From positions 34,843 through 98,842 of the IMG/VR virus record IMGVR_UViG_3300025096_003363: a stretch of DNA of 64,000 bases; one strand, written 5' to 3'. The translations under genes were made by a program, and so were the position numbers. Below the pieces are notes generated by a model that was given only the letters and a program-made list of their open reading frames with translations, did not search any database and had not been told where the DNA came from. The stretch is from a virus. The stretch's first letter is position 1, and each line of letters starts with the position of its first letter. Of the stretch, positions 2,630 to 64,000 are shown one piece after another.

Positions 2630-2634
2630 ACTAT

Positions 2635-2642
2635 TATTTATG
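2635..2642 (-). promoter_or_regulatory. Late promoter box (CATAAATA), 5-base gap to ATG
   Basis: Minus-strand CATAAATA followed by 5 bases and the ATG at 2629. With T4 late-promoter geometry the A of ATG would be +1. Confidence 0.65.
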
Positions 2643-3177: not shown

Positions 3178-4382
3178 GACCCGGGTTTATCTTTTTGAAA
3201 GTTAGCTGAACTAAAATCTAATCTGTTAACAAGCTTAACAGCATTACCATCTCTATCAACCGCTACATATCCCTCTGGAGAAGTAACTCTCAACTTACCT
3301 TCACCCTCGTCGATAAAGTGTTTAGTGTTATAAACAGCATTATTGTACTTGTTAATAAAGATTTGCTTAGCCTGTGATAATAAACTACTAACCTTAAACA
3401 GATTAACTATGTCATCCTTTTGAGCTTGGAACTGAGCTGTTTTTTGCTTAAGAGTTTCTTCTAATCTTTGCTTTCCACGCTTAGATTTTCTCTTATCAAC
3501 CTCTTTATTAATTCTAGTAGTATACCATTCAATAAAGTTTCTATAAGACTCTTCTGGATCATTTAAGAACTTACCTTCTCGAATCTCCGTATTAATATAA
3601 GGGTTGAGAAGATCAGAAGGTAAGTCCTTGTAATCTATTTTGATTGAATCAGCGGTTTTTATTAAGTCTCTAACCTGCTTTACTTCATCTTTTGTTAAAT
3701 TTACAACGCCTGTATCGTCTTTAAAGTAGGCATCATCAAACCAAACACCTGGAACCTGCTTCAACCGGTTAACTTTAGCACCAAACGCCGCCGGGCTGTC
3801 TAAATCGTTATATTCTGTATGGAATATGATACCAAACACGGAGTTAGCTATCTTTTTACCTAGATCTGAATTAGCCTCTACTGCATATTTGATCGTATTA
3901 GGTTGAAATGTGTAATGAACTACACCATCTATGTTCTCTTTCTTAACCGATGAAGAATCAAACATAAAATCACCCTGCATTATGTTCTTAATACCTAACT
4001 TAGGTAGATATTTTAAAGCCTTCTTAAGTTTATCCGCTAAACCAGGGGCATGCCCGTGATTAACTTCAACATCTTGGTCATTATAGTTAATTTTAGGCTC
4101 TTTATTAAAGACAGCCTTAGTACCAACAAAGAATTTACCGGTATCAGGGTGCTTTCCAGCAAAGATAGCAGGGGCTCCATCCCATTTTACCGTAGTACCG
4201 ATCTTTCTTTTACTCTTTCCTTGTAAATGGCCGAGTAAATTAGTTAAAAAGCCCCTAGCCTGGTCATAACCACCCTTACCTCTTGTAAGGATCAGTTCTT
4301 CTAAGTGTGTAAGGTGTGTATTAGCCTTAGCTTCCTCGATTAACTCTAAGTAATGTTCGAAATATAGTTTAAAGTTTTTCAT
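3174..4382 (-). CDS. KxDG ligase/nucleotidyltransferase-like protein with capsid-targeting-like leader
   Basis: The 402-residue protein resembles a conserved but uncharacterised protein of T4-like cyanophages. TVKWDGAPAIFAG contains KWDG (residues 66-69), which fits motif I (KxDG) of covalent nucleotidyltransferases such as DNA/RNA ligases. IMQGDFMFD (~134-142) sits where a motif III would be. EGYVAVDRDG (370-379) followed by VKLVNR (382-387) fits motifs IV and V. K66 would be the nucleotide-accepting lysine. The leader MKNFKLYFEHYLELIEEAK matches the capsid-targeting pattern seen in neighbours. The ligase reading is inferred from motif order and needs structure comparison. It overlaps the downstream nucleotidyltransferase by 4 bases. 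Confidence 0.8.
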   Translation of the reverse strand: MKNFKLYFEHYLELIEEAKANTHLTHLEELILTRGKGGYDQARGFLTNLLGHLQGKSKRKIGTTVKWDGAPAIFAGKHPDTGKFFVGTKAVFNKEPKINYNDQDVEVNHGHAPGLADKLKKALKYLPKLGIKNIMQGDFMFDSSSVKKENIDGVVHYTFQPNTIKYAVEANSDLGKKIANSVFGIIFHTEYNDLDSPAAFGAKVNRLKQVPGVWFDDAYFKDDTGVVNLTKDEVKQVRDLIKTADSIKIDYKDLPSDLLNPYINTEIREGKFLNDPEESYRNFIEWYTTRINKEVDKRKSKRGKQRLEETLKQKTAQFQAQKDDIVNLFKVSSLLSQAKQIFINKYNNAVYNTKHFIDEGEGKLRVTSPEGYVAVDRDGNAVKLVNRLDFSSANFQKDKPGS

Positions 4383-13184: not shown

Positions 13185-13188
13185 ACTA

Positions 13189-13196
13189 TATAAATA
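13189..13196 (+). promoter_or_regulatory. TATAAATA late-type box directly before a start codon
   Basis: A perfect T4 late box that ends 2 bases before the ATG at 13199, with AGGAAC at 13174-13179. By usual geometry transcription would start just inside the start codon, so either a downstream ATG is used or the box serves another purpose. Confidence 0.5.
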
Positions 13197-13198
13197 GC

Positions 13199-14440
13199 AT
13201 GATATCACCGTCACCGTACCCACAGCCACATGTCGCTCCATTAACTCCACCCGGTGGTAGCTCTAGTTCTATACCTGGTCAAATGCCAGGCGTTCCTTTA
13301 AACAAACAAGAGGAGACGCCTCATGAAGCAAACCTTCCACGGTATGTAAATTACCTAGCAGATTACTCAGGTTGTGGTCATTGGAGAATTCTTTGGCCGG
13401 AGGCAACTATTAACGCTAGAGGTGACGGCATGTCACAATCAACAACTGCTATGGTTGCTGATCCAAGATGGTATCAAAATGTAACGGCTGTAAAGTTACA
13501 GCGACAAGCGTCTTCAGCACAAGTAGAATTCGTTAAGTACTTAAAACAAATTCAACAGGAACATGGATTTAAACTAATGTATGAAGTTGATGATGTTGTG
13601 TTTAAGGAAGTAATTCCAGATTATAATAAGTTTAAATTTGCATTTGATACGGAAGAAATTCGAGAAAATTGTATCGAAATTATTAACTTAGTTGATGAAG
13701 TAACAGTCACATGTGACTTTATGAGAAGGCTTTATCAAGAAAAAACCGATCAGAAAAATATTACAGTTATTCCAAACTTTATTCCAAATGGTTGGATGGG
13801 TCAACTTTTCAATCCTAGAGATATAGAAAGAAATTACGAGGCAAATAAAAGAAAGCCACGTATTCTATATACAGGCTCCGGAGCACACTACGATGTAGAA
13901 AATAAAACAGGCGGTAAGGACGATATGTATGAAGTGCGCGATTTTATAAGAAAGACTGTCGATAAATATCAGTGGATTTTTGTTGGGGCCTTTCCTCCAC
14001 AACTTGCTGATTTAGTTGAGCAACAAAAGATTGAATTTTACCAGTGGCAAACATTATTAAAATATCCATACTTTGTTAGCAGCTTAAGAGCTCAATTAAT
14101 GGTTGCGCCACTTCAAGTTAACGATTTTAATAGAGCTAAATCTGATATCAAATATATTGAAGGATGTATACTCGGTATACCATGCCTGTGTCAGGATATG
14201 GATACGTATGCTGCAGCGCCTGATAACCTCAAATTTAGTTCTGTAGAAGAGTTTGAAGATAAAATTAATCGCATCCTAAACCCGAAAAAGAAGAACAAAT
14301 ATTTTCAAAATGTTCATAAGCTTAGAAGAATAGGTGAACAGCGAATTCTTGAACTAGATGAAAATATTGGCGCGCATCTTGAAGCGCTAAATACACCGTA
14401 CGGTAGTTCTGAAAGACGGTTCCTTAGAGAGTGGAATTAG
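13199..14440 (+). CDS. GT-B type glycosyltransferase
   Basis: The 413-residue protein has a Pro/Ser-rich N-terminal ~45 residues, then a glycosyltransferase body. It resembles proteins of marine T4-like phages in segments YLADYSGCGHWRILWPE, KLMYEVDDVVF, EVTVTCDFMRRLY, ITVIPNFIPNGWMG and RILYTGSGAHYDVENK, and ends with a sugar-nucleotide-binding-like IKYIEGCILGIPCLCQD. It probably transfers a sugar to DNA or a virion protein; acceptor and donor are unknown. It sits between gp46 and gp43 and may be transcribed late from the adjacent TATAAATA. Confidence 0.8.
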   Translation: MISPSPYPQPHVAPLTPPGGSSSSIPGQMPGVPLNKQEETPHEANLPRYVNYLADYSGCGHWRILWPEATINARGDGMSQSTTAMVADPRWYQNVTAVKLQRQASSAQVEFVKYLKQIQQEHGFKLMYEVDDVVFKEVIPDYNKFKFAFDTEEIRENCIEIINLVDEVTVTCDFMRRLYQEKTDQKNITVIPNFIPNGWMGQLFNPRDIERNYEANKRKPRILYTGSGAHYDVENKTGGKDDMYEVRDFIRKTVDKYQWIFVGAFPPQLADLVEQQKIEFYQWQTLLKYPYFVSSLRAQLMVAPLQVNDFNRAKSDIKYIEGCILGIPCLCQDMDTYAAAPDNLKFSSVEEFEDKINRILNPKKKNKYFQNVHKLRRIGEQRILELDENIGAHLEALNTPYGSSERRFLREWN

Positions 14441-18470: not shown

Positions 18471-19607
18471 ATGGATAAAGATATTACTAGTGCATTGGAT
18501 GCTATTGATAAAGTAAACCCCTTCGCAACTTATTTAGATAACAATTCACTCAGTCACGTTGGATCATGGATTGATACAGGATCTTATGTGCTAAACGCAA
18601 TTATTTCCGGTTCAATTCACGGCGGAATACCTAAAGGTAGAGTAACAGTACTTGCCGGTGAGTCGATGACAGGTAAGTCGCTTTTTGTCCAAAAAATTCT
18701 AGCCAAGGCCCAGGAGGACGGGCTCGTCCCTGTTATCTTTGATACTGAAAATGCTATTGACCCGGAAGGAGCTGCAAGATTAGGGCTAGATATTAGCAAA
18801 GTTAAATATGTTCCTTGTACTAGTATTGAACAAACTCGTAATTCACTGTATAAGTTTCTTATGGTGGTAAAAGAAAAGGGACTAGAGGGTAAGTTTATTG
18901 TAGCTATTGACTCACTAGCTAATCTTCAATCAGAGCTTGAACTGTCGCGGATGAGTAAAGACAGTGTTAGTTCAGATATGGGTACAAAAGCGCGCGCAAT
19001 GAAGACATTAATGCAAACTTGTACAAATTTAGGGTCAGTTACACAAACCACTATCCTATGTACTAATCATGTCTATGATGACCCAACAGCTCTGTTTCCT
19101 TCTATTGAAAAAAATATGCCAGGTGGTAAATCATGCATTTATCTTCCATCAGTAACAGTTCAACTAGCACGCAAGCCAATGAAATCAGATGGCGGTAAGA
19201 CTGTTGATGGGGAATTGGCAGTTGGTCAGAAAAAATACGCTGGAATTATTATTAGAGCCCTTACGCGTAAAAATAGATTTATTAAACAGTACCTTGAAGG
19301 TGAAATATACCTTTCATTTGCTTCTGGACTTGATCGCTACTATGGATTAGTTGATCTGGCCGTTGGTGTTGGTGCAGTAGTTCAAACTGGAGCAACTTAT
19401 CAGCTTGAAGATGGTACTAAGCTAGGCTATTATAAGAATTGGAGGAAGGATGTTAAACTTTGGGAAGAGACTATTCTTCCAAAACTTGAAGAACGAATTA
19501 AAGATGAGTGGTCTTATAGTAATAAAGAAGAAGAGCCACCTGATGAATTAGGTTTAGATGGTTTAGATGATTTAATTAATGAAAAAGAAACTAGTACTGA
19601 CTCTTAG
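18471..19607 (+). CDS. uvsX: UvsX RecA-like recombinase
   Basis: UvsX forms filaments on single-stranded DNA and catalyses strand exchange, with UvsY and gp32. The 378 residues from the ATG at 18471 contain Walker A GESMTGKSLF, VIFDTENAIDPEGAARLG, Walker B FIVAIDSLANL and TTILCTNHVYDDP, with an acidic C-terminal tail. The frame is open upstream to 18357, but that would run through the RNA and terminator, so the ATG next to the promoter is chosen. It overlaps queC by 29 bases. Confidence 0.95.
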   Translation: MDKDITSALDAIDKVNPFATYLDNNSLSHVGSWIDTGSYVLNAIISGSIHGGIPKGRVTVLAGESMTGKSLFVQKILAKAQEDGLVPVIFDTENAIDPEGAARLGLDISKVKYVPCTSIEQTRNSLYKFLMVVKEKGLEGKFIVAIDSLANLQSELELSRMSKDSVSSDMGTKARAMKTLMQTCTNLGSVTQTTILCTNHVYDDPTALFPSIEKNMPGGKSCIYLPSVTVQLARKPMKSDGGKTVDGELAVGQKKYAGIIIRALTRKNRFIKQYLEGEIYLSFASGLDRYYGLVDLAVGVGAVVQTGATYQLEDGTKLGYYKNWRKDVKLWEETILPKLEERIKDEWSYSNKEEEPPDELGLDGLDDLINEKETSTDS

Positions 19608-20337
19608 TGGGGGAATGGACTCATCTGTGCTGTTGTATATGGCACAAGATAGAGGCTATGATCATATACATACCATAACCTTTGACTATGGTCAAAGGCA
19701 TAAACAAGAACTCGCTTGTGTTAAAAAACAAATTAATAATTTTAATAACATGTTTAGCGGGTGGTTTAATTTAAAGATTACTAATAAGGTCTTAGATGTA
19801 AAGTATATTAAAGACATTGCGCCTACCTCATCTTTAACTAATAAAGATATTGATAATCCTAATATTAGCGAGATGGCAGGTGATGCACAGCCTGTCTCAT
19901 ACGTACCGTTTCGGAATTTAATGTTTCTATCTATTTGCTCGTCATATGCTGAAAGTGTAGGTGCAGATACAGTATGGTATGGTGCTGCACAGGTTGATTC
20001 ACTAGCTGGGTATTGGGACGGTAGTGAAGAGTTTGTTAATGTAGTTAATGAAGTAACAGATCTTAATAGAGAGAACAGAATTAACATTGAAGCACCGCTT
20101 CTTGACATGTCGAAGGCTGCAATTGTTAAAGAAGGAATTAGACTAGGAGTTACATATGGTGATACATGGACATGCTATTCGAATAGAGAAGATGGGCTAG
20201 CTGATGCCACAACTCCGTCAAGTAGTATGCGAATAACGGGGTTTATTGATGCTGGGTATGAAGACCCTATTCAATATGTCCAACAGGAAAAGTTGGATGA
20301 CCTATACAAAGAAAATAACTGCAAGGAGTGTGCTTAG
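19579..20337 (+). CDS. queC: QueC-like 7-cyano-7-deazaguanine synthase with altered zinc cluster
   Basis: QueC converts 7-carboxy-7-deazaguanine to preQ0 using ammonia and ATP. The 252 residues have the PP-loop SGGMDSS (10-16), FDYGQRHKQEL, VPFRNLMFLSICSSYAE and WYGAAQVDSLAGYWDG, all family hallmarks. The usual C-terminal zinc cluster, TWSCY...CGxCxxCxxR, is changed: TWTCY is kept, but the CGxCxxC part reads ADATTPSSSMR. A CKEC motif instead lies at the extreme C-terminus (C248, C251), which may rebuild the site. It may take part with folE and the amidotransferase at 22.2 kb in making modified guanines. Confidence 0.9.
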   Translation: MKKKLVLTLSGGMDSSVLLYMAQDRGYDHIHTITFDYGQRHKQELACVKKQINNFNNMFSGWFNLKITNKVLDVKYIKDIAPTSSLTNKDIDNPNISEMAGDAQPVSYVPFRNLMFLSICSSYAESVGADTVWYGAAQVDSLAGYWDGSEEFVNVVNEVTDLNRENRINIEAPLLDMSKAAIVKEGIRLGVTYGDTWTCYSNREDGLADATTPSSSMRITGFIDAGYEDPIQYVQQEKLDDLYKENNCKECA

Positions 20338-33282: not shown

Positions 33283-36200
33283 CTAAAATTGCAAATTATT
33301 GCAATCCGGATCTTCGGGACATATCGTTGTAGTTGTAGTCGTTGGAGCCGGGGTAGTAGTCGTCGTGGTAGTAGTCGTCGTCGTGGTCGTAGTTATTATT
33401 TGTTCTTCTATTAAGAAAGGTACCTGCAGCGGTAGGATCGGCGCCGGGTATATAAACACCGGGTCCTCCGGTTCCGGTTCCGGTTGCGGCGGATCCGGCG
33501 GATCCGGCGGATCCGGCGGCTGCGGCAGTGGCGGTTCAACAATTATAGTCGGTGGCACCCTGGTTGGAGGAACAGTACATGGGGGCGGTGGAGTTGTGTA
33601 GGGCGGCGTCGTATAAGGCGGCGTCGTATAAGGCGGCGTCGTATAAGGCGGAGTTGTGTACGGTGGTGGAGTTGTGTAAGGTGGTGGAGTTGTGTACGGT
33701 GGTGTTGTAGGATCATCGTATATTTTAAAATCACCAGACGGTCCACCGTTCGTATAACCACCCGGCCAATTAGACCCGGGTAAATCATTAGTATTCTCTA
33801 GACCGCTGGGTGTATCAATGACCTCTTCACGCGTGCTGGGATCTGTGACATCATCGTCCTCCTCCTCTAAATACGGATCAACAAAGACGTCTTTTTTAAG
33901 AAGAGGGTCGAGTCCACCGGAGTCAATGTCAATGATGGGACCTTCTTTGGTTTGGGTTGTATCATCCGTTTCCTCGATCTTTGTGCGAGGATCAGTAGGA
34001 TCGAGGCCACCAGGGTCAATGATGGGACCTTCACTTCCTTCCCCGGCATTTGGATCCCATGGACCGGCCGCCGACATCCGCCAGCCAGATGGCAGCTCAA
34101 ACGGGTCACTTCCTTCCCCGGCATTTGGATCATATGGGCCAGCCGCTGACATCACCCAACCGGGTGGCAGAATAGGATCAGCAACCTGATCAGGTTGGTA
34201 CGTTATTGGTTTTGAAGCTGATATTGCTTTATCAATATCAACTGTCTGCAAAACATAACTAGGCGACCCGGCATTATGGCTAAGGCGCTCCATTGCCGCA
34301 TTAATCTCATTTTGAGTATCGGGGTTCCCATAAAAAGGTCCACCGCCGGTGGTTGTATGAGTCTCAACTAAAATAGGTGTGTTATTAGTGTATATAAATG
34401 ACGGAGCACTACTATCACCCCTTTCCAATAATTCTTGGAAACTACTCTCTGGTATAGGTAGAGCAATGCTTACAGTTTCAGGATTTGCTCCGCGCTCTGA
34501 CCGGCCACGGTCGAATGTCATTACTCTTGGAATTGATTTTCTTTCCGCATCAACTGTAACAACATATGAATCCTGTAAAATATAATTATAATCCGTACGT
34601 GGTTCAGGAACGGGGTAAATAGCAGTGTTTTCAACCGGTGAATCAAAAATTCCGACACTTATATCCAGACTGCGGTCGCCAATCTTGATTCTTTCAACAA
34701 TATTTCTAGTTACTCTATTTCCATCTTTATCTATAAAATTTACAACGCCATCGGCACTATCACCCGGATACCGTACGTCCCAATGCTTGGACATTACGAA
34801 GTGAATTGGAGACACCATGGTTATTGATTTTTCTGTCGCGGCTCTCCAATTATTCGGATTAAAACCAACTCCACGTTCACTTATACCTGATATATCCAAT
34901 TTACCGGCAATTGGTAAGTTAGATACTAATAACCTGTTTATGAGTTTTTTAGTTTCAGACTCTGGTTCTGGACTTTCTCTTTGCTGTTGTACAGTTAAAG
35001 TGAATATCCGTGTTAGATATACTTGTATATCTTCCAATAACCACTCTGACAACATTCCGCTGGGGTCGTCCTCCACTCCACTGTTAATATCTGTAAGTCT
35101 TTGCTGATCAGCTTGTAGTCTTTGAGTGAGTTCCTCCAAACTTAAAGTTGGTAATATACTGTCTCTGAAACTCCTCCTCGCCTCCAACCGTCTTTGGTTT
35201 GCAGCATTTAAAAGCTCTTGCCGAGTCGTTTCATTTTGCTCACTTTCAGCTTCCTGTCGTTCTCTTTCTATTCTAGCTTCTTCAGCTATAGCTGCCTTAC
35301 TCGCGGCGACCGCAGCCGCCTCTTCCTGTAACTGCCTTAATCTAGCCTGTTCTAGCGATTTTTGTTCAGCTTCATAAGCAGCCGCCTTCCTAGCTGCCAC
35401 TTCAGCGTCACGTATTGCATCGGAAGTCGCTTCACCGGCTTTTGATAATCTACCGGCAGTGGTTGGCTTATCCGGTGTAGCCGCTGTATATAGCCTCCTA
35501 CCTTGGGTGATCTGCTCCTCTGCTTTAGTTGCTTGCGCTGCTTGTGCAGTTGCTTCTGCATCTGCCTGCGAGCGTGCCGCTTCTGCTTCCGCTTTTGCTG
35601 CCTCAGCAGCCGCGAGCGCCTCTGCCGCGACCTCTGCCGCGGCCTGAGCTATGCTTTCCGCTTTTGCCTGTGCTGCTGCATTTGCTGCGGCTCGAGCCGC
35701 GGTCTGAGCCGCAGATTCCGCTGCTGTACGTTCCGCTTGCGCAGCCGCGGCATCTACCGCGGCCTGAGCTGCTAATTCTGCCGCTTCTGCTTCTGCCTGC
35801 GCAGATGCTTCCGCTTTTGCTGCAGCATCTGCTGCCCTCACCGCTTCCTCCTCCTGTTGTCGAAGTTGATCAACCTGTTCTTGCGAGATTCTAAATTCGT
35901 CTTGAGGGTTAGGTATATTTTGTGTTATCCTTTGTGATACAGGCTTACCTTCAACAAATTGCTGTAACGAAATGGTAACATCCATACTACCGTCTTCAGC
36001 AACTTGATCTGCAATAAGTGTTAACCCATCAGCATTTATATTTACCCATGGGGTGGGTAACCCCCATACAGAAGCAGGTGTAGTACCACTAGCACCGTCC
36101 CAAAGCTCTTCTTTAGTTTGATAATCCTCAATAAAGATCTCAACCTCACCATCAAGCTCTCTAGATACTTGTACATAATCTACATTAACAGTACCTGTTG

Positions 36201-36660
36201 TGTTTTTAAAAGAGTTTGGAGCTCCACCACCGCCCAGTTGAGGGTAAGCGACAACAGTCACACCAACATCTATTAGTCCAACGTCCGGGCTGCCTAAATT
36301 TGAAGCCGCAGGCTCTACCGCGGTAGTTGGCTGATTAGGATCCGTATCCTCTGTGTCCGCGGTTGATGGTCCCGTAACGACCGGAACGACCGGATCAATT
36401 GGAGACACCGCACCTGGAGACACCGCACCTGGATTACAAAGCGCTGGGTCAGGTGGCACCTCATATGGGCCAGCCGCTGACATCCGGATCTCAGGCTGCA
36501 CCTTATATGGCCCGGCTGCTGACATCCGCCAGCCGGGTGGCAGCTCCGGTTCACTTCCTTCCCCGGCATATGGATCATATGGCCCGGCCGCTGACATCAG
36601 CCAGCCAGGTGGCAGCTCCGGGTCACCGCCATTCACGGAATATGGATCATCTATTGGCAT
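33283..36660 (-). CDS. Large mosaic repeat protein: SAAGPY repeats, Ala-rich coiled coil, Thr/Pro mucin-like tail
   Basis: The 1125-residue protein has several regions. Residues ~15-75 and ~830-890 carry repeats of PPGWxMSAAGPYDP with AGEGS linkers. Residues ~255-500 form a long Ala/Glu/Arg coiled coil. About 510-830 look globular with beta-rich segments. From ~984 come tandem YTTPP repeats, a Pro/Asp/Glu stretch, a run of 14 Thr, PAP and 6 Thr. It has no signal peptide. It overlaps the next virion gene by one base and looks like a virion surface or fibre protein, possibly O-glycosylated. I know no full-length homologue. Confidence 0.8.
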   Translation of the reverse strand: MPIDDPYSVNGGDPELPPGWLMSAAGPYDPYAGEGSEPELPPGWRMSAAGPYKVQPEIRMSAAGPYEVPPDPALCNPGAVSPGAVSPIDPVVPVVTGPSTADTEDTDPNQPTTAVEPAASNLGSPDVGLIDVGVTVVAYPQLGGGGAPNSFKNTTGTVNVDYVQVSRELDGEVEIFIEDYQTKEELWDGASGTTPASVWGLPTPWVNINADGLTLIADQVAEDGSMDVTISLQQFVEGKPVSQRITQNIPNPQDEFRISQEQVDQLRQQEEEAVRAADAAAKAEASAQAEAEAAELAAQAAVDAAAAQAERTAAESAAQTAARAAANAAAQAKAESIAQAAAEVAAEALAAAEAAKAEAEAARSQADAEATAQAAQATKAEEQITQGRRLYTAATPDKPTTAGRLSKAGEATSDAIRDAEVAARKAAAYEAEQKSLEQARLRQLQEEAAAVAASKAAIAEEARIERERQEAESEQNETTRQELLNAANQRRLEARRSFRDSILPTLSLEELTQRLQADQQRLTDINSGVEDDPSGMLSEWLLEDIQVYLTRIFTLTVQQQRESPEPESETKKLINRLLVSNLPIAGKLDISGISERGVGFNPNNWRAATEKSITMVSPIHFVMSKHWDVRYPGDSADGVVNFIDKDGNRVTRNIVERIKIGDRSLDISVGIFDSPVENTAIYPVPEPRTDYNYILQDSYVVTVDAERKSIPRVMTFDRGRSERGANPETVSIALPIPESSFQELLERGDSSAPSFIYTNNTPILVETHTTTGGGPFYGNPDTQNEINAAMERLSHNAGSPSYVLQTVDIDKAISASKPITYQPDQVADPILPPGWVMSAAGPYDPNAGEGSDPFELPSGWRMSAAGPWDPNAGEGSEGPIIDPGGLDPTDPRTKIEETDDTTQTKEGPIIDIDSGGLDPLLKKDVFVDPYLEEEDDDVTDPSTREEVIDTPSGLENTNDLPGSNWPGGYTNGGPSGDFKIYDDPTTPPYTTPPPYTTPPPYTTPPYTTPPYTTPPYTTPPYTTPPPPCTVPPTRVPPTIIVEPPLPQPPDPPDPPDPPQPEPEPEDPVFIYPAPILPLQVPFLIEEQIITTTTTTTTTTTTTTPAPTTTTTTICPEDPDCNNLQF
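33322..33400. repeat. Low-complexity ACN codon run (poly-Thr)
   Basis: On the minus strand this is a run of ACN codons encoding 14 Thr, PAP and 6 Thr, with varied third bases. That suggests selection on protein rather than simple slippage. Confidence 0.8.
33598..33712. repeat. Tandem 15-18 bp repeats encoding YTTPP(P)
   Basis: Seven in-frame repeats encode Tyr-Thr-Thr-Pro-Pro(-Pro). The central copies are nearly identical in DNA (GGCGTCGTATAAGGC on the plus strand), consistent with recent repeat expansion. Confidence 0.8.
34030..34170. repeat. SAAGPY-encoding direct repeats, C-terminal copies
   Basis: Two copies of a ~75 bp unit sharing CTTCCTTCCCCGGCATTTGG followed by the SAAGPY/SAAGPW codons. 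Similar copies recur at 36440-36650 in the same gene, 2.4 kb away, and could recombine. Confidence 0.75.
36440..36650. repeat. SAAGPY-encoding direct repeats, N-terminal copies
   Basis: Four MSAAGPY units, three preceded by a GW/GR-type or linker segment, share stretches with 34030-34170. Confidence 0.75.
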
Positions 36661-53289: not shown

Positions 53290-55539
53290 CTAGAACAGAG
53301 ATAGACTACTAAATAAGGAGTTTCGAATCATAACATCAAATACGTTATTAGCTCCTTCGAGGGCGCTAAGCGGGGTATTATAATCTAATGTTGTTAATCC
53401 ATTGGAATAGTCGATTAAACCACCCTCGATGGTGTTATCGTACGTTGCAGATAGACTATAAAATTTGTAAAACTTATCTACATCTGTAATACTAGCATAA
53501 GTTGCTGGTAATACTAAAGGCCACCCCCAATATGGGCCACCGCTAGTTGCAGGTGTCGCTGTAGTATTAAAATTACTAAGCATATAAGTCTGGAAATTAC
53601 CAGATTTAGAATATGAAGCTCCACTTAATGCAGATATTGGCTGATAAGTATTCAGTCTTGTATATGTGTCACTAAACTTTTCATACGCTACAATGTCTGT
53701 GCCGGCAGACACTTCGTAAGTTGATGTATCAAGTAATGCACTTAGATTTTTTCCATAAGTTGTTTTTGTTGTATGTCCTTTGGGGTTGTAGTTTTCATCA
53801 AATTTATTTTGTGTACCTCTAAATTTGTTATAATTCATACTGAGCACACTCATTAACCTATCCACTAATTCAGGTTGTTGAGCTAAAGATCGATCAAACA
53901 CGATCCCTTCGTCATCGGTTAGATCAGCTAAATTAATAAGAGAATTAATATCACAATAATCTATATCGCTAGTGTTTGATGTAAAGTTTTGAATTCTTTC
54001 CCAAATCTTCTTTCCTAAAACAGTATAACTACTACTAACGTTACCAAATATAGTTCCAATAAAATCAGTAAATAAGATATCCTTATCTAATAAAATTTCC
54101 TGGAACCGTAAATCCTTTATTGTTTGTTCAAAATCAAATTCTTCATTTTGCTTATATGCTTCGTAATAGTTTTTTGGATAACAAGTAAAAGCTGTATAGC
54201 CGGTTACTGTATTAGTTGTAGAGGTCGCAGTATTTTCATACGGACATTTTGCACTAAGTGTTAAGTACGCAGGCTCAGCAGAAAGTGAAGCAAGAGTATT
54301 ATCATTAAATGTTAAGAGACCTCTATACCAAAATGTTGTATCAAAAGAAGATAACGTAGCGCTTAAGCTTTGAATTGTATAATGTGATGCAGATACTTTA
54401 ACACCACTTACACCCGGAATTATTTGTGGTGTTTTACCTGATAACAACGAAAAGGTTGGTGTTAAGTGACTAGACAAGGACTTCATTGTATAGTAATCCT
54501 GATTCTTTGGTGAAAGAATAAATGGTATACCCAATCCTTTGTACTGAACTGGAGATACAGCAAAGGTAGCTACACTGTCACCTTCTCCTGGAATACCATT
54601 TGAGGTGATTGCTATACTACTAAGAGTTTGAGCAGAAGTTGCGCCAACTAAAGATGATAGTGTAATAGTAAAGTTGTTGTTGTAGTTATTATTTTTATAA
54701 CCAGTAGTGCTATTAGAGAATATATTATCTCTATCCTTAAAGAAAGATACGTTAATAGTGTTGTAAGGTGCTTTTTGTCCGTCAGTCTTAAAATATACTA
54801 CTTGATCTCCCGAGCTTCCTACATTAATACTTGATATATGCGTGCTTAATGAGTTTACTATTGCAAACGCACTCGGGCCTTTACCACTAGTGTAATTATT
54901 ACCACTTAACCGCACATATATGTTTGCAGAAGAAAGAGAAATCTTGTCTATATCCTCATACTCAAATCCAGATAGTGAAGGTATGTATTCTTTCTTATAA
55001 AATGAATTAAACTTTTTAAGATTATTAAACCTATTAGCATTTAAATTATAATAATTAGGTACATCACACCCAGACACCGAAAAATAAATATCTTGAAAAT
55101 CTTGATAGAAGGGCGACTGTGAATTAATTGTTATAGCATTAGAAAATTCACCTGCTGATAAATTTAATATATTTGTCTTTACAGGGCCAGCGGTAACTGT
55201 AAAGGTGTTAGTTATGTAATCAAATATTTCAACATCTGTGCTATACGACGCTAATATTGAATTATTATTACAATCACGTAACACCATTCTGACATTGTAT
55301 ACCCCGGGGTATTCGTAAACGTGGTTACTGGTTAATGTATTACCATAAGTACCGTCGCCAAAGTCGAAAGTAGCCTTTAAGGTATTATATTGGGTTGTTA
55401 CCGCCACACCGCCGAGAGAGCTAGGTATACGAGCCTTAAAAGTTAGCGGGGTAAAGGGTAGATTATAAGAAGATAACTTAGCTTCTCGCTTATAATCTTC
55501 TACGTCAAATGTCGCATAGTCTACTTTTATATTACTCAT
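53290..55539 (-). CDS. Large baseplate-associated protein with PKD-like domain
   Basis: The 749-residue protein has, near the N-terminus, KATFDFGDGTYGNT and HVYEYPGVYNVRMVLRD, a textbook PKD pattern (FDFGDGT ... HxYxxPGxYxVxL). A long Ser/Thr/Asn-rich beta region and a helical segment (~490-600) follow. It overlaps gp6 by 8 bases, so it belongs to the wedge operon. It has no T4 counterpart that I recognise. Confidence 0.78.
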   Translation of the reverse strand: MSNIKVDYATFDVEDYKREAKLSSYNLPFTPLTFKARIPSSLGGVAVTTQYNTLKATFDFGDGTYGNTLTSNHVYEYPGVYNVRMVLRDCNNNSILASYSTDVEIFDYITNTFTVTAGPVKTNILNLSAGEFSNAITINSQSPFYQDFQDIYFSVSGCDVPNYYNLNANRFNNLKKFNSFYKKEYIPSLSGFEYEDIDKISLSSANIYVRLSGNNYTSGKGPSAFAIVNSLSTHISSINVGSSGDQVVYFKTDGQKAPYNTINVSFFKDRDNIFSNSTTGYKNNNYNNNFTITLSSLVGATSAQTLSSIAITSNGIPGEGDSVATFAVSPVQYKGLGIPFILSPKNQDYYTMKSLSSHLTPTFSLLSGKTPQIIPGVSGVKVSASHYTIQSLSATLSSFDTTFWYRGLLTFNDNTLASLSAEPAYLTLSAKCPYENTATSTTNTVTGYTAFTCYPKNYYEAYKQNEEFDFEQTIKDLRFQEILLDKDILFTDFIGTIFGNVSSSYTVLGKKIWERIQNFTSNTSDIDYCDINSLINLADLTDDEGIVFDRSLAQQPELVDRLMSVLSMNYNKFRGTQNKFDENYNPKGHTTKTTYGKNLSALLDTSTYEVSAGTDIVAYEKFSDTYTRLNTYQPISALSGASYSKSGNFQTYMLSNFNTTATPATSGGPYWGWPLVLPATYASITDVDKFYKFYSLSATYDNTIEGGLIDYSNGLTTLDYNTPLSALEGANNVFDVMIRNSLFSSLSLF

Positions 55540-57379
55540 CTGTTATAACAATACGCTTAGCTACGGATAAGGGAGAGTATAGGTACGGAAATTTAAAAAA
55601 CGGTAACGTTTTATCTTGATTTACTAACTCTATATCACTTTCAGGGTATTGAGGGTTAAATGATAAAAATGATACACCACCTGTGAATATTTCCCCAGTT
55701 AGCTCATTTCTAGTTTCTATTCGCTTTATACCTTCCAGTGAAAGAATATCATTAGCTAAATCTATTAATTTTAAATTCTCACCTAGATTGTTATTTTCCG
55801 GAATGAAAAAGTTTTTAATTATACTGGCAATTCGCGACTTTAACGTGTTTTTATTAATTTTGTTGTTTGTTTCTCTAACAGCGTATAACTTACTTTGATC
55901 TAGTATATCTAATGTTAAGTTAGAAGCATTACCTATACCTAACCCAAACGCCATATAGATAGGATCTCTAGGTACAACAGTATTAGATAACATCTTACGG
56001 TCCTGCGTTTGCGTTACAATATAATTTTTAAATGAATTACTCAAAAACGGAGGATAGGACTTATCTTCTGTGATTTTAAATTTAGGTACAACAAATACAT
56101 TAATGTTATTAAAGTCACACGAATCTGCAAAATTCACTTGATTGATTATTACTCTATTTACCTTATTAGGGTCAACACATATATCATAAAAATATTGTAT
56201 ATATTCATTAATATAAGACGTGTTGCTAGCAACGCGCGTACTAGTGATCACGTTAGCTAAGTTTCTTTCTAGGAATGATTGATAGTCTTTTTCAGTAACC
56301 AGCCTCAATTGCGATGAAAACATTTTTGGAGCATTTTGTCTAATTTGGTCGACTGTTTCTTCTGTTGAAAGAGTAGAAGAATTGAGAGGGTTATTAAATG
56401 TAATCTTTGGACTGTTGGTAATATTTAGGAATGTTGTTTCGTCTTTATTCGGATATATGTCCTTAAATAATGCACGTTGCCTAGCCGAATCATAAACAAA
56501 TAATTTATTACCATTAATTATGTTTTTACTAATAATGCCGGCAGTATTATCTGACAATATATAATCGATTGATACAATATCACTCTGCTCTAGCTTTTTA
56601 CCAAATACACCATTTCCAAACTTTACTTCATAATGACCGTATTCATTTAATCTAATCTCACATACTCTATCAACCGCGCTTGATAGATACAAGCTTTCAA
56701 CAATCTGGTATTCATAGTATGTTGAATTACTAGCCTCTTTGACATACACGCTTACAGTACCATCAGCAATAAATTTATCATCATTACTATCAACAATGTT
56801 ATCTACAACAATTGGTAATATTTCAAATTCCTCGCCCTGGGCAGTATAATCTGGATACTCTTTAATGGTCCCTTGATACAAGATAGCTTCATCATTTACA
56901 GTTTGTAAAGTTTCTGTTTTGCCGGCAACATTTTTATTAAAGGATAAATCTTCATTAAAGTTATATTGAACACCGTCTGCTAAAAAATAAGAATATTTAC
57001 GAATAGTATAATTACCGGTAGGTAAAGATGCTGATGCAACTGCGTTTATTGGAACAATAGAAGTTTGCTTACCAGCCGGCTTATAACCGATTAACTTTAC
57101 AATTTTGTTCATGTTCTCATATAGAGTAGCTTGATCAAAATTTACTTCTGCAGCTGTATTGTTTAAATAGAACAAGAGAACATGATAAGAGTATGCAATT
57201 ATATCAATTACGGCGGCTAAATTACTACCTTCATAATTTTGATCGGTGAACTTTTGATTTTCATCTAATCGATTAATAATATAATCTTTTAAACTTACTG
57301 CATCAAACGCGACATATGCGTCTTGTGGCAGATTAAAATCTAAAAACTTATTCGATGTTTCGTTTGTGTTTGTTGGCAT
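55532..57379 (-). CDS. gp6: Baseplate wedge protein gp6
   Basis: gp6 forms the inner wedge ring of T4-type baseplates. The 615 residues (T4: 660) include NYEGSNLAAVIDIIAYSYHV, LYENMNKIVKLIGYKPAGKQ, YGHYEVKFGNGVFGKKLEQ (typical of the gpJ/gp6 group) and VTEKDYQSFLERN. It follows gp25 by 4 bases, the usual gp25-gp6 order in T4-like marine phages. Confidence 0.9.
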   Translation of the reverse strand: MPTNTNETSNKFLDFNLPQDAYVAFDAVSLKDYIINRLDENQKFTDQNYEGSNLAAVIDIIAYSYHVLLFYLNNTAAEVNFDQATLYENMNKIVKLIGYKPAGKQTSIVPINAVASASLPTGNYTIRKYSYFLADGVQYNFNEDLSFNKNVAGKTETLQTVNDEAILYQGTIKEYPDYTAQGEEFEILPIVVDNIVDSNDDKFIADGTVSVYVKEASNSTYYEYQIVESLYLSSAVDRVCEIRLNEYGHYEVKFGNGVFGKKLEQSDIVSIDYILSDNTAGIISKNIINGNKLFVYDSARQRALFKDIYPNKDETTFLNITNSPKITFNNPLNSSTLSTEETVDQIRQNAPKMFSSQLRLVTEKDYQSFLERNLANVITSTRVASNTSYINEYIQYFYDICVDPNKVNRVIINQVNFADSCDFNNINVFVVPKFKITEDKSYPPFLSNSFKNYIVTQTQDRKMLSNTVVPRDPIYMAFGLGIGNASNLTLDILDQSKLYAVRETNNKINKNTLKSRIASIIKNFFIPENNNLGENLKLIDLANDILSLEGIKRIETRNELTGEIFTGGVSFLSFNPQYPESDIELVNQDKTLPFFKFPYLYSPLSVAKRIVITDE

Positions 57380-58856: not shown

Positions 58857-59113
58857 ACGTCTCCGTTCTCGTCAATTTTTTGATCTTCGTAAAGACCTAC
58901 TACCGTTCTGTAGTATTCCTGTTTGCAACACTCTAGCGCGCCAATCATTTCATTATAATTTGCGTAATTTTCTCCCTGTGATCTAATATAATTATCTATA
59001 AAAACAGTAATTACGTAATTTAACTCACCTGCGTTTTTAGGGACAAAATTCAATCCGTATACTTCAAGAGCACCATCCACTAGTTGTCTTTGTTCTGGTT
59101 TAATGTAGGGCAT
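58853..59113 (-). CDS. Small conserved-type phage protein
   Basis: The 86-residue protein begins MPYIKPEQRQLVDGALEVYG and ends ECCKQEYYRTVVGLYEDQKIDENGDV, matching a small protein widespread in T4-like marine phages. Function is unknown. It overlaps gp44 by 14 bases. It occupies the place of the clamp-loader small subunit gp62 but is too short and unlike it. Confidence 0.8.
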   Translation of the reverse strand: MPYIKPEQRQLVDGALEVYGLNFVPKNAGELNYVITVFIDNYIRSQGENYANYNEMIGALECCKQEYYRTVVGLYEDQKIDENGDV

Positions 59114-60026
59114 TTTCTAAATTTACTAAACATGCAAATGCATTAATTTCTTTATCTACAACAAACGCGCTCTTATAGAGATGGTCTGCGATAATAGCAA
59201 TCGTTTCTTTCTTTTTAAGATCTTCGATATTTGAAGTATAGATAAAATCTAGATAATTAGCTAATAACGTGTCATAATCTCCTTGGAACCTATCTTCGTT
59301 TTCAATCAAATATCTCCTAGCTTCTAAACACTGCTTAGAGGCTATTTTTTTGTAAATCGTTTCGAGCAACTCGTTATCACTAACAACGCTAGTAATACAC
59401 AGCTCTGAATCAATGACGTTTTTTTGGAGCTCGTTAATGGTTTTCCGTAAATCGGGGAAGTGACGCTTGACAAGCTGTACGAACTTTTTCTTTTGCTCTT
59501 CCGGTACTTTAATATTTTCATTTTTTAGAATGGTGTAACATCTTTTAACTGCTAATTCGATAACAGGTTTAAAAGTTAATGACTGACATCTGGACTGTAC
59601 GGCTGGAATAATCTTATGCTTATAGTTCGCAGTAATAATAAACCTACAATACTTAGCATACGACTCCATTGTATTACGAAGCGCTGCTTGAGCTTGAGAT
59701 GTTAGACCATCTCCCTCATCTAAAATTACGACCTTAACCTTACCATCGAAAGATTTAGTTTGTGCAAAATTAGTAATACTGTGTCGAATAGTATCGATAC
59801 CAGACTCATCAGAAGCATTAATATAAAGGTAATTACACTTAAGAATGTCGTTAACAATAACTCTAGCAAGGGTGGTTTTACCAGTACCAGGATTACCAAC
59901 AAAAAGAAGATTAGGTATTTCATTTTTAAACTCTTTAACTACGCGTAATGTCTCTTGATCTAAGATAACATCATCTAGCGTTTGCGGGCGATATTTTTCG
60001 ACCCAAATTTTATCAAAATCAATCAT
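59100..60026 (-). CDS. gp44: Clamp-loader ATPase subunit gp44
   Basis: The AAA+ subunit that opens and loads the gp45 clamp. The 308 residues contain WVEKYRPQTLDDVI, Walker A VGNPGTGKTTLAR, Walker B VVILDEGDGL (DEGD, where DEAD/DEID-like boxes are usual), sensor FIITANYKHKI and the arginine-finger SRCQSLTF. It lies apart from gp45 and gp43, unlike T4. No gp62 is found in the window. Confidence 0.93.
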   Translation of the reverse strand: MIDFDKIWVEKYRPQTLDDVILDQETLRVVKEFKNEIPNLLFVGNPGTGKTTLARVIVNDILKCNYLYINASDESGIDTIRHSITNFAQTKSFDGKVKVVILDEGDGLTSQAQAALRNTMESYAKYCRFIITANYKHKIIPAVQSRCQSLTFKPVIELAVKRCYTILKNENIKVPEEQKKKFVQLVKRHFPDLRKTINELQKNVIDSELCITSVVSDNELLETIYKKIASKQCLEARRYLIENEDRFQGDYDTLLANYLDFIYTSNIEDLKKKETIAIIADHLYKSAFVVDKEINAFACLVNLENALH

Positions 60027-60507: not shown

Positions 60508-60951
60508 ATGGCTGATGAAGAGTTAGATGGAGCGGTGAATGATATTATTGCACAGATAAAAGGTAATAATAGTACCGTACGCGAAAAGCGCGAAGATATA
60601 ACTATAGATAAAGACAATTTAGAAGAGTTTATTATGAACTCTTCTGGAAAGCTTGTTAAAAAGTCTTTAGAACTTGTTGATAATGTTAATGATTACATTT
60701 CAACAGCTCCGGAGAATAGAGATGTTGCAGCATTGGCAGAAGTAATTAAAGCAACTGCAGGGTCTATTGATACATTACAAAAGCTTCACAGTTCTAACGA
60801 GAGAAACGAAACACAAAAGGAAGTTAAGAAAATGGATGTTGAATCTAAAGAGAGGATAAACATTACAGATAATCAGACTAGAGTGCTTCTCTCTCGTGAA
60901 GATATTATGCAAGCATTGGTTGATAGGGACGATGACGTTATTGATGTTTAA
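60508..60951 (+). CDS. Possible small terminase subunit (gp16-like)
   Basis: The 147-residue, acidic, helical protein has a central helical part (LVKKSLELVDNVNDYISTAP, DVAALAEVIKATAGSIDTLQKLH) and a C-terminal NITDNQTRVLLSREDIMQAL, reminiscent of T4-like small terminases, which have a central helical hairpin and short flanking regions. The match is by pattern only, and gp17 is not adjacent, so this is uncertain. An ATTAAATA box is 8 bases before the ATG. Confidence 0.5.
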   Translation: MADEELDGAVNDIIAQIKGNNSTVREKREDITIDKDNLEEFIMNSSGKLVKKSLELVDNVNDYISTAPENRDVAALAEVIKATAGSIDTLQKLHSSNERNETQKEVKKMDVESKERINITDNQTRVLLSREDIMQALVDRDDDVIDV

Positions 60952-62264
60952 AAATCAAGCGCGTCGTCGCAAGTGTCTTTATCGTCGCAGATATCTTTTC
61001 CTCTATCTAAATATTCTTGAAACTCTTCCATAGTACCGAACGGCATCCATACTGTTTCGCCAGTACTTGTAAGATGTGTATGTGCACCAGATAAAGATCC
61101 GTTCGTTAGATCTAAAGTCTTTTGCGCGGCACTTAAAGGGTTGGTAAACGTAGTAACATTCAACACACCCGGGAAAGTACCGAGACCTTCAATTACCGGA
61201 TCAACTTGTGGCGACATTTGTGTACCTCCAATATTTGGATTCTCTCTCGGTTTCGACCCCGTTCCGCCCCGACCTGCAACTGTGTATAAATCAAACGAGC
61301 CTTCCCCGGTAGATATTGTAAGACCAAAATTTGGTATTGATGGACCGCAGCAACAACTACAACAAACCTCAACACATTCTTCTTCTAACTTTTCATTCCC
61401 TTGTTCGTCAAAGGCTTTTCTTAAGAGAAGGACAGATTTACAAACTGCTTCATTTTTTGTTTTTGATATATTTTGATTCGGGTCGAAAAAGTTTATATCT
61501 CTCTTGTAAGTAAATAATCTAAACGCATCCGGACCGAGGTAGCCCGCAACTAGTTGAATAATACTATTTGCAATGCCTTTTAATATGTTACCAAATTTAA
61601 CATCCTTAATCATTAGATTACCACACGCAACTGGCCCTGAACAGTAATCCCCGTTATATTCATTATTGACACGCTCTATAGAACGCCTGTCTATATACGG
61701 GTATGCACCATCGCTATATATTGCGCTTTCAGAGTTATAGTTAAAAACATCAGCGCATGTTGTCTGACAGATATTAAGATTCCTTCGTAAAAAAGCCGGC
61801 GTCTTTTTATATAAATTTATCGATATGTCTTCAGATGCACCGACATACACCGGTACATTGGCGTTTTGTTGAGTTGTATTAGCTAAGCATGCTAAAGTGT
61901 CCGGGGAGGGAAAAAAGCAATTTTCTTTACGACCTTGACCTCTATAAGGATTTTGCGCATACTGTACAACATAGTTTGTAAACGGTCCGTTATAAAGCTG
62001 CCTTATATAGTATAAAGCTGACTGTTCATCAATTTCTGGATTACCACGTATAAGATCATCAACAAATATTTGCAGCTGTCTTAGCCCTAATTGATATACT
62101 CTTTTAAATGATTGACACAGCTGTTTATCCTTATTTGTAAACTTATACCCTAATATTGGCCCTCTATTTTGTCCCCTGCAATCCCGTTCTACAAGGGAAT
62201 CAAATTGATCTTTAGTTAATTCTAAAGCTCTTAATGTTTCGATACTTTTGTTACATATAGCCAT
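60948..62264 (-). CDS. Cys-rich baseplate/tail-tip region protein, unknown
   Basis: The 438-residue protein has a helical N-terminal ~110 residues, a middle with scattered cysteines, then CVEVCCSCCCG (C297-C306), a dense cluster that could bind metal or form disulfides. The C-terminal part ends SGAHTHLTSTGETVWMPFGT, a His-rich turn typical of tail-tip proteins. It is adjacent to the hub-like gene, so a role at the baseplate centre or spike is likely (inference). I recognise no family. Confidence 0.75.
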   Translation of the reverse strand: MAICNKSIETLRALELTKDQFDSLVERDCRGQNRGPILGYKFTNKDKQLCQSFKRVYQLGLRQLQIFVDDLIRGNPEIDEQSALYYIRQLYNGPFTNYVVQYAQNPYRGQGRKENCFFPSPDTLACLANTTQQNANVPVYVGASEDISINLYKKTPAFLRRNLNICQTTCADVFNYNSESAIYSDGAYPYIDRRSIERVNNEYNGDYCSGPVACGNLMIKDVKFGNILKGIANSIIQLVAGYLGPDAFRLFTYKRDINFFDPNQNISKTKNEAVCKSVLLLRKAFDEQGNEKLEEECVEVCCSCCCGPSIPNFGLTISTGEGSFDLYTVAGRGGTGSKPRENPNIGGTQMSPQVDPVIEGLGTFPGVLNVTTFTNPLSAAQKTLDLTNGSLSGAHTHLTSTGETVWMPFGTMEEFQEYLDRGKDICDDKDTCDDALDF

Positions 62265-62265
62265 T

Positions 62266-63645
62266 TTAAGTGTCTTCTATTTTAGAGTCGGGCCCCACAA
62301 ATGTTTTAACACATGAGATTACGTTAAAATACTTATCTTTTGTAAACAGGTGTCTTACCTTAGTTACAAACCACCTACCTAATAATTTTTTGTCTGCAAT
62401 TTCTTCTTTTTTGTTTCTCTTAAATACATCTATAAACTTACCAGCCTTTCTAGCTGTATCGCCAATATTATCAATAGCTAGCTGGAGGTTAAAAAAGGTT
62501 AAGTTAGAAACCATTTGAGCTTTTGCTATATTTCTTACATGCTCTTTTTTATATGGTAGAATAAAGGGCTTAAAAATATTACTCTTTGCTTCATTTAATG
62601 GTAGGAAGGGCTTCGGCACCCCACCAACACATTTAAAGACTTCGACAAACGACTTTGCCCATGCATCCTTAATAGTTTTAATTGTCATTAATTCTTTAAC
62701 TTCTATCCCCAGGTATTGGTTAGTTGTAGCTACTGAATAATTTGTAAAGAACTCGTTACTCCATGTTACCATCGGGGTGGTAAAGTTTGTATTCTTTAAC
62801 GCGTTAGTGTATTTATTAACCAGAACGCCCTCATCTATAGGGTTACTTTTAACTGTGCCGACATTCTCGACATTAGTCAAATCTCCAACACCAAATGCCT
62901 CTTGCGTCAACTCTGAGTTTTCACCAAATATTTTACTTATGGGCCGTAGTTGATATTTTTTATTTACCCTGTTAAAAGTAAGCATTCCTTGACAAGCTAG
63001 ATCACCATCGAGAAAATAATACAACCTAAGCAAATACTTGATTAGATCTGAATACCTAAATGATATTGGTGGGATAATATATTCCGGAAAGTTATCTATC
63101 ACCATGTCACCTGGCTCCCAGTTCTCATAGTCAATGCAATCAGGTCCAATAACTTCTTCTAATATTTCTTGAATGATAGTACCGATAGCAACATGCAGGC
63201 CACCGCGCCCGCCGCCGCCATATCTTTTACCATATGGAATTTGTTCATTTAACTTAAAATAGTTTTCTTCAATTAAAGTATACGTTTTAAAGTTATTAGT
63301 TCTATCTGTTTTAGATACACTATTACTCTCATTAGCAATTACAAAATCATATTCTAACTGAATTTCTTCTTTTGGTCTCTTATCTTCTGTATTGTATAAC
63401 GTTATACTAAACTTGTCCCTACCGTCTCCCCTTGTAAACACTGTGTTTTCAACAAAATCTAGAGGGTTATTAACTGTTACAGATGCACTAACAAATGGTT
63501 CAAAAAAGTTTTCTTCTAACTCAAAATGAACAACAGCAGATTTTGTAAATTGAATCTTACCTGGGCCTTCTGTACTCGGGCCTGTAAGATTGAATTTACA
63601 GTAAAAATCAGTCCCGTTAATAGGGAATATTGGTTCCGTTGCCAT
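62266..63645 (-). CDS. Baseplate hub protein, gp27-like
   Basis: The 459-residue protein has beta-rich IQFTKSAVVHFELEENFFEPF...ASVTVNNPLDFVENT at the N-terminus and LLGRWFVTKVRHLFTKDKYFNVISCVKTF near the C-terminus, the pattern of gp27/gpD-type hub proteins (a final beta-barrel that closes the hub). T4 gp27 is 391 residues. It lies directly after gp53 with a one-base overlap. The assignment rests on pattern and context. Confidence 0.7.
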   Translation of the reverse strand: MATEPIFPINGTDFYCKFNLTGPSTEGPGKIQFTKSAVVHFELEENFFEPFVSASVTVNNPLDFVENTVFTRGDGRDKFSITLYNTEDKRPKEEIQLEYDFVIANESNSVSKTDRTNNFKTYTLIEENYFKLNEQIPYGKRYGGGGRGGLHVAIGTIIQEILEEVIGPDCIDYENWEPGDMVIDNFPEYIIPPISFRYSDLIKYLLRLYYFLDGDLACQGMLTFNRVNKKYQLRPISKIFGENSELTQEAFGVGDLTNVENVGTVKSNPIDEGVLVNKYTNALKNTNFTTPMVTWSNEFFTNYSVATTNQYLGIEVKELMTIKTIKDAWAKSFVEVFKCVGGVPKPFLPLNEAKSNIFKPFILPYKKEHVRNIAKAQMVSNLTFFNLQLAIDNIGDTARKAGKFIDVFKRNKKEEIADKKLLGRWFVTKVRHLFTKDKYFNVISCVKTFVGPDSKIEDT

Positions 63646-63989
63646 TAGAAGTGTCTATTGCTGAAAGCAGTTGTATCAGTAATTTGCTGATAAATCAAAG
63701 CTCTATCAGTTTTCTTAATATACTTTAACTGCATACCACCTTCAGCATAAAATTTGTTTTTAAGAAGAGGTTTATTTAATAAGTATATCATCCACCAGCT
63801 TTCAATATCACCATATAGATTATAAGATGTTGTTGTCAATGGCTCTCTTGACTTTACAGTATACAAGTCAAGTAACATGGGATCTATATTATCTGGAAAT
63901 TCAATCTTATTAAGAATGTTATAAAAGTAAAACTGCTTACCATTTTTACCTTCTGTGTATATTCTAAATATTCTCTCATACCGCGTCAA
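63645..63989 (-). CDS. gp53: Baseplate wedge protein gp53, start possibly outside window
   Basis: gp53 binds gp6/gp25 at the inner wedge. SYNLYGDIESWWMIYLLNKP is the family hallmark, and the 114 residues end with a charged region. The only start codon seen is a TTG at 63989, but the frame stays open to the window edge, so the true start may lie beyond base 64000. It overlaps the hub-like gene by one base. Confidence 0.8.
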   Translation of the reverse strand: MTRYERIFRIYTEGKNGKQFYFYNILNKIEFPDNIDPMLLDLYTVKSREPLTTTSYNLYGDIESWWMIYLLNKPLLKNKFYAEGGMQLKYIKKTDRALIYQQITDTTAFSNRHF

Positions 63990-64000
63990 TGGAAGCGGTT

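Follow-up and report, generated by a model that had tools for sequence, protein, structure and literature searches.

We analysed a stretch of 64,000 nucleotides (the window; positions 34,843 to 98,842 of the IMG/VR record IMGVR_UViG_3300025096_003363) from an uncultured T4-like virus of bacteria. The gene under study, P0001, encodes a cysteine-rich protein and lies beside a baseplate hub gene. The features referred to below are as follows.

60948-62264, minus strand: P0001, hub-adjacent protein of 438 aa with an ATG start; Cys-rich variant
61347-61376, minus strand: cysteine cluster CVEVCCSCCC, residues 297-306 of P0001 (read from 61376 down to 61347)
61356-61448, minus strand: beta-hairpin predicted by AlphaFold2, residues 273-303 (strands 273-285 and 291-303)
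61950-62252, minus strand: N-terminal helical domain, residues 5-105, predicted by AlphaFold2; the best-predicted part (block pLDDT 66-80 for residues 11-100)
61002-61148, minus strand: DUF3721-type module that lacks its two cysteines (residues 373-421) and includes SGAHTHLTSTGETVWMPF; found with an HMM of Cys-bearing members
62266-63645, minus strand: baseplate hub gene (P0002; 459 aa), phrog_350-type, in a gp27-like position (phrog_350 "tail protein", E = 2.9e-11)
63645-63998, minus strand: gp53-like baseplate wedge gene, running off the window; weak PHROG matches to wedge/tail families and synteny with phage C48C1
57384-57872, minus strand: gp25-like gene, placed by position only
55532-57379, minus strand: gp6-like baseplate wedge gene; matches annotated baseplate wedge proteins by tblastn (E = 2e-11, 25% identity across 65% of the query)

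P0001 and the hub gene are on the same strand, and the hub gene stops 1 nt before the P0001 start codon. In the annotation of phage C48C1 (Kyanoviridae), a tube cap gene is followed by genes for a wedge protein, the phrog_350 tail protein, a gp5-like protein, two hypothetical proteins and two wedge proteins; in the comparison with this phage, P0006 matches phrog_350 at 2.4e-43. Among 70 loci examined, 65 (60 out of 65 contigs) have a P0001 homologue directly after the phrog_350-type hub on the same strand, starting -4 to +13 nt relative to the hub stop, and in the remaining five the sequence stops either at the hub or no more than about 200 nt away. The 70 loci comprise 65 from a hub-based search (alignment A6) and five further ones (L181-L184 and L187) that are second reads of contigs already among the 65, and many of the contigs behind them are near copies. 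Because of this synteny with the hub, the wedge genes and the C48C1 order, the hub-region placement of P0001 that had been proposed in a sequence-only reading of the window is right. We infer that P0001 would be co-translated with the hub and located in the baseplate, its presence in the virion being taken from synteny only. A scan of genome contigs with the hub alignment gave 69 candidates, none of them a relative, and therefore no hint of the host; tblastn of P0002 found nothing in 50,697 phage records.

Using an HMM search, we identified 46 unique homologues of P0001, and direct searches gave identical copies as well as relatives at 68-74% identity. Alignment A7 contains 43 of the 46; we left out two pieces of L233, where the ORF is split over two frames (2064-2351 and 2320-3252; the split is either genuine or an error in sequencing), and a 109-aa contig-end piece common to L209 and L218 (one cysteine count used 44 sequences, with one L233 piece included). 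We found no Pfam or PHROG model for the family of P0001: over the 43 members, the best PHROG match (E = 0.0099) is not convincing, and the Pfam matches are DUF3721 in seven members (E of 0.1 or below, best 4.6e-6) and otherwise weak ones, the next by number being mTERF (5 members, E = 0.011). P0001 defines a hub-adjacent family that is not in the Pfam and PHROG libraries searched. Tblastn queries with P0001, with the members from L184 and L181, and with a 43-residue L181 module had no match in the 50,697 phage records. The family profile gave no clear counterpart in C48C1 (150 of 156 kb, ORFs of at least 60 aa), where the best ORF (E = 0.066) sits at the place of an annotated NifU-like gene. 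Besides the copies and relatives of P0001, the in-frame matches listed in a scan for the cysteine pattern are Cys-rich frames of 50-220 aa, none of which reached E = 0.1 with the family HMM. Our literature search found no paper on a cysteine cluster in a phage tail baseplate, which does not mean that none exists. Four members of the family reach 688-809 aa (L181 5548-7611, L195 4353-6416, L196 6502-8904 and L197 5930-8356); the L181 member owes its extra length to a large insertion that separates conserved parts of the core, and the L196 and L197 members have Thr-rich stretches near the C-terminus.

Residues 297-306 of P0001 contain exactly six cysteines in ten residues, and by composition count P0001 is the Cys-richest (18 Cys, 4.11%) of 62 ORFs in the window. 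These are the largely non-overlapping ORFs of at least 100 aa (20,018 residues, 179 Cys, 0.89%); across the whole set about 2e-6 ten-residue windows at this six-Cys density are expected by chance, and 18 Cys in 438 residues has P of about 4e-8 against the other 61 ORFs (binomial). The dN/dS of P0001 is 0.05-0.11 in the seven unsaturated pairs of eight computed (dS is above 1 in six of the seven), and the gene reads as one under purifying selection. A chance cluster or a non-coding ORF is ruled out by the cysteine statistics, by dN/dS and by the invariance of the cysteines with synonymous codon variation described below.

The cluster is restricted to one clade of the family. In alignment A7, C301, C302, C304, C305 and C306 are found in 9/9 members of a clade (68-74% identical to P0001) and in 0/34 of the other members (25-36% identical). 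At these columns the 34 others mostly have E (19), T (30), L/I/M (32), F/L/I (33) and G (34), and at column 303, where the clade has Ser, 23 of them have D. As read from the alignment, the clade has overwritten a strongly conserved (E)TD(L/I/M)(F/L)G motif with five cysteines. Seven more cysteines (C4, C50, C116, C126, C166, C170 and C275) are each present in all nine clade members; outside the clade, the only Cys at any of these seven columns is a single one at column 116 (44 sequences). The lineage has, by this comparison, gained twelve cysteines, five replacing the motif and seven elsewhere in the chain. Older cysteines that are also seen among the 34 outside members include C297 (15), C29 (15), C426 (10) and C432 (19). 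C208 and C214 are found together in P0001 and its identical copies only, and both are absent in the other eight. The dense cluster in a late hub-region protein that the sequence-only reading had pointed out is thus confirmed as non-random and present throughout the clade. That reading had also made its proposal depend on conservation in homologues, and here the outcome is against it: all 34 distant members, at the same hub-adjacent position, are missing the cluster, which is therefore a trait of one lineage rather than a general hub switch.

In the tree, the nine clade rows make up a single fork (support 100/100, no other row inside) on a long branch of 1.07 changes per column. Within the clade, 16 of the 18 P0001 cysteines are invariant (C432 was seen in 8/9, one contig ending early), as compared to 260 invariant columns out of 436 overall (hypergeometric P = 0.007); Phe is nearly as conserved (19/22). 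None of the 16 invariant cysteines is replaced by another residue, and 13 of them show synonymous TGT/TGC variation. The eight complete clade members have 18, 16 (six times) and 17 cysteines, and the ninth, cut by a contig end, has 15. At eight of the twelve gained positions the residues of the relatives are mostly hydrophobic or small, counting Thr as small (column 4 F/I, 50 M/L/I, 116 F/L/I/V, 126 T/V/A, 166 G/A, 170 T/A, 304 L/I/M and 305 F/L/I), which suggests buried contacts.

The cysteine enrichment is confined to P0001 among the neighbours tested. Mean cysteines per 100 residues in the P0001 family are 3.7 in the clade (n = 9) versus 1.0 in the others (n = 34), as compared to 1.11 (n = 9) versus 0.91 (n = 34) for the hub, 0 (n = 9) versus 0 (n = 31) for gp53, 0.23 (n = 8) versus 0.42 (n = 31) for the tube cap, and 0 (n = 8) versus 0 (n = 7) for the tape measure. 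The other virion-side ORFs of the window (from 33 kb on) have 0-1.1% Cys with one exception, a clamp-loader-type ORF (59103-60026; 2.27%), and 0-1.36% is the range for six ORFs from the record that we named by eye as capsid- or neck-side. Since the neighbours tested are not enriched, any bonds or metal would lie within P0001 or between its copies. We rejected a general cysteine enrichment of the virion, as in Agrobacterium phage Milano, on the low cysteine content of the proteins tested.

The predicted structure of P0001 is a weak model (AlphaFold2 with 43 sequences: mean pLDDT 54, pTM 0.33; pLDDT 31.6 from the nine close sequences). The second strand of the predicted hairpin leads into the cluster, with ten-residue blocks at pLDDT 62-67 for residues 271-300 and 43 for 301-310; if the hairpin strands pair in register, C275 would lie opposite C301. 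The C-terminal module (residues 376-421) is predicted as helix-strand-strand-helix with pLDDT of about 70. With this weak input, the best Foldseek match has E = 1.5 and the best VIA match, over the helical N-domain, Z = 4.3. Among the 50 BFVD matches listed by Foldseek, four have probabilities of 0.97-1.00 over 51-96 columns and none has E of 0.001 or below. The second AlphaFold2 model gave no confident fold match (Foldseek on PDB and BFVD; VIA), and a profile search of PDB sequences returned no matches at E of 1 or below.

The gained cysteines are probably built-in cross-links or a metal site. The reading we favour, with a probability of roughly 40%, is that of structural thiol cross-links in P0001, probably disulfides outside the cell, whose oxidation state and pairing we infer. 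P0001 would be produced along with the hub and serve as a structural protein of the baseplate; its thiols would form cross-links, either within one P0001 chain or among the P0001 copies that surround the tail axis, and would be oxidised to disulfides once the virion leaves the cell, and CVEVCCSCCC, at the end of the predicted hairpin, would be a knot joining several chain segments. This is consistent with the 16 cysteines invariant in the clade (13 with synonymous TGT/TGC variation), the single fork (support 100/100), the buried-type residues of relatives at 8/12 gained positions, C208 and C214 being present or absent together, the count of 16 in six of the eight complete members, the enrichment of P0001 alone among the proteins tested, and the disulfide-stapled phage tails and capsids described in the available excerpts of two reports (PMC10811340, PMC12796354). 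The weak model (mean pLDDT 54, pTM 0.33, block value 43 at the cluster), an odd count (17) in one of the eight complete members, and a virion presence taken from synteny only argue against it. Phage assembly takes place in the reducing cytoplasm, a further difficulty, and five cysteines in six residues are awkward for ordinary disulfides, such density and CC or CCC strings being typical rather of metal-thiolate proteins. The close rival, a tentative one, is a metal-thiolate site, in which CX3CCXCCC and other cysteines would bind zinc, copper or an iron-sulfur cluster and stiffen a hub-proximal collar; besides the very dense thiols, the partly acidic nature of the replaced motif (E301 in 19/34, D303 in 23/34) speaks for it. 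So do the Fe-S precedents beside hubs, since lambda gpL and the RcGTA hub protein each hold an Fe-S cluster with four cysteines according to the available excerpts (PMC10721106, PMC7296036). Like theirs, the site in P0001 would be Cys-rich and in or beside a tail hub; those proteins, as described there, have four spaced cysteines and one Fe-S cluster in a non-contractile tail, whereas the spacing in P0001 is unlike that of gpL (Cys 173, 182, 205 and 212). We also found no sequence relation of P0001 to gpL (no Pfam or PHROG tail-tip match, and none in the PDB profile search at E of 1 or below). The metal-thiolate site is further weakened by the lack of any Pfam match over the 43 members but DUF3721 (seven) and weak ones, by the absence of an Fe-S carrier (PF01521) in the eight phage records searched, which are possibly fragments, and by the many gained cysteines that are far from the cluster in sequence and at buried-type positions. 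Glutaredoxin (PF00462) was likewise absent in the eight records, possibly fragments. A polynuclear metal-thiolate centre, possibly formed by several copies around the tail axis and overwriting the ETD-L-F-G motif, is rather unlikely; if true, it would give T4-like phages a virion metal site of a new kind.

We also consider it unlikely that the cysteines are small hydrophobic fillers in a core repacked without special chemistry and fixed on one long branch. The replacement of hydrophobic or small residues at 8 of the 12 gained positions and the 1.07 changes per column on the branch to the clade fit such a filler, against which stand the invariance of 16/18 cysteines (versus 260/436 columns, P = 0.007, with Phe nearly equal at 19/22) and the drift to Ala, Ser or Val that filler cysteines would be expected to show. 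A redox switch, in which disulfides of the cluster would lock the baseplate outside and be reduced at the host to release the hub, is possible but unsupported, and we give it very little credence. Milano speaks for it: by the available excerpts, a disulfide network there blocks contraction, structural proteins average 2.1% Cys and are bonded to each other, tails could be made to contract with guanidine plus a reducing agent and not with chaotropes alone, and baseplate disulfides must break (PMC10811340). As far as these excerpts go, Milano and phage 7-7-1 resemble the virus studied here in having contractile tails and an unusual cysteine enrichment in virion proteins (a putative one in the case of P0001), which in Milano include the baseplate. 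They differ in that their cysteines occur in sheath, baseplate and receptor-binding proteins alike (in 7-7-1, the capsid) and bond different proteins, whereas here P0001 alone is enriched among the proteins tested, and the cluster is absent in 34/34 members outside the clade. The sensing of a change from outside to the cell interior, which the sequence-only reading had proposed for the cluster, is not supported, as the neighbouring hub-region proteins are not Cys-enriched, unlike those of Milano; that interpretation as a whole is partly supported. The family offers a clean natural comparison, since phages that are otherwise similar have this hub-coupled protein either with the gain of twelve cysteines or without it, which lets thiol chemistry (disulfide or metal) be tested for baseplate stability or triggering.

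P0001 is in the post-hub slot that holds a gp5-like gene in C48C1. Unlike the T4 gp5-type spike, neither P0001 nor any of the 43 members has an OB (Phage_base_V) or lysozyme domain at E of 0.1 or below. Two larger records with the family beside the hub have gp5-like genes far from it: a 196.9 kb record encodes a distant OB and M15 peptidase protein (Phage_base_V 2.2e-7, Peptidase_M15_4 2e-11), and a 170.9 kb record a distant OB and lysozyme protein (Phage_lysozyme 7e-24; Phage_base_V 23.0 bits, just below the cut-off of 23.8). Because gp5-like spikes are elsewhere in these relatives, P0001 is probably not the spike, and we rejected it as a gp5 candidate. The phrog_430 matches are weak (E = 6.0e-5 and 2.9e-5), and 9/14 control genomes are positive in this search as well, so the gp5-like calls rest on the Pfam domains of the two ORFs. 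No gp5-like gene was found in the other four of the six records searched (the 98.8 kb record of the window and three of 85-92 kb), which are possibly fragments. In two related viruses, L188 (994-2145) and L189 (408-1505), we observed gp5-like OB proteins with different catalytic domains (phage lysozyme versus M15 peptidase). A further gene comes after each of them, and the one in L188 has a translation that resembles a beta-helix spike.

The C-terminal side of P0001 contains SGAHTHLTSTGE (residues 392-403), as the sequence-only reading had seen, at a distance of about 86 residues from the cluster, so that the two are not neighbours. With an HMM of the seven Cys-bearing family members, run on 10,404 ORFs, P0001 is a match at E = 1.5e-5, and the clade members range from 1.6e-6 to 0.023 (0.023 for L038). 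Residues 373-421 are related to DUF3721 (PF12518) through members that match the Pfam model; the copy in P0001 differs in having neither cysteine and is itself short of that model (0 families at E of 5 or below for the module piece, PF12518 cut-off not reached). A 66-aa piece of L181 passes PF12518 with 30.3 bits (cut-off 27), whereas the whole L181 protein, at 25.3, is below. By motif, the module is found in 16/43 members, and members such as L181 carry GCSGYHIHLEDGNTYYMPC. Both module cysteines (GC...MPC) are present in 7/34 members outside the clade and in 0/9 within it (GC to SL and MPC to MPF; P0001 reads SLSG...WMPF). Both histidines are kept in 8/9 clade members, and L038 has lost the second (HSQ). 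The SGAHTH...WMPF stretch reads as a degenerate DUF3721-type module, the decaying form of a common module rather than a special iron spike. A His-held iron site in this stretch is weakened by the loss of both cysteines and, in 1/9 members, of the second His; an HxH-held iron in P0001 is possible but unsupported. The available excerpt on the T4 long tail fibre gp37 describes seven irons at repeated HxH sites (PMC11705849). P0001 shares with gp37 one G-x-H-x-H string; it is the only HxH in P0001, not one of a repeated series, has Gln at the second His in 1/9 members, and lies inside a DUF3721-type module.

Scanning viral contigs with C.G.H.H...G...YMPC, we found at least 120 loci, those listed all being in frame. 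These environmental phage loci (e.g. L258, L260, L268, L282, L313 and L324) have the module (Y/F).T.EEAE..AE..GC.G.H.H...G..YMPC..H. The two Cys of this module, with its two or three His, point to a small metal site. Ten module-bearing translations read by eye are mostly portal- or head-protease-like. No mention of DUF3721 was found in the literature searched.

Other genes were noted in the window and its relatives. FolE-, QueC-, QueE- and QueD-like genes, recognized by eye from translations, are found at 1164-1820 and 19579-20337 of the window and at 12425-13216 and 13959-14663 of L171, and this set could make a preQ0-type 7-deazaguanine DNA modification. An ORF of 1125 aa at 33283-36660 of the window carries, besides repeats of MSAAGPY/PELPPGW units and a YTTPP repeat, a stretch rich in Ala and Glu and, close to the C-terminus, a long run of Thr.
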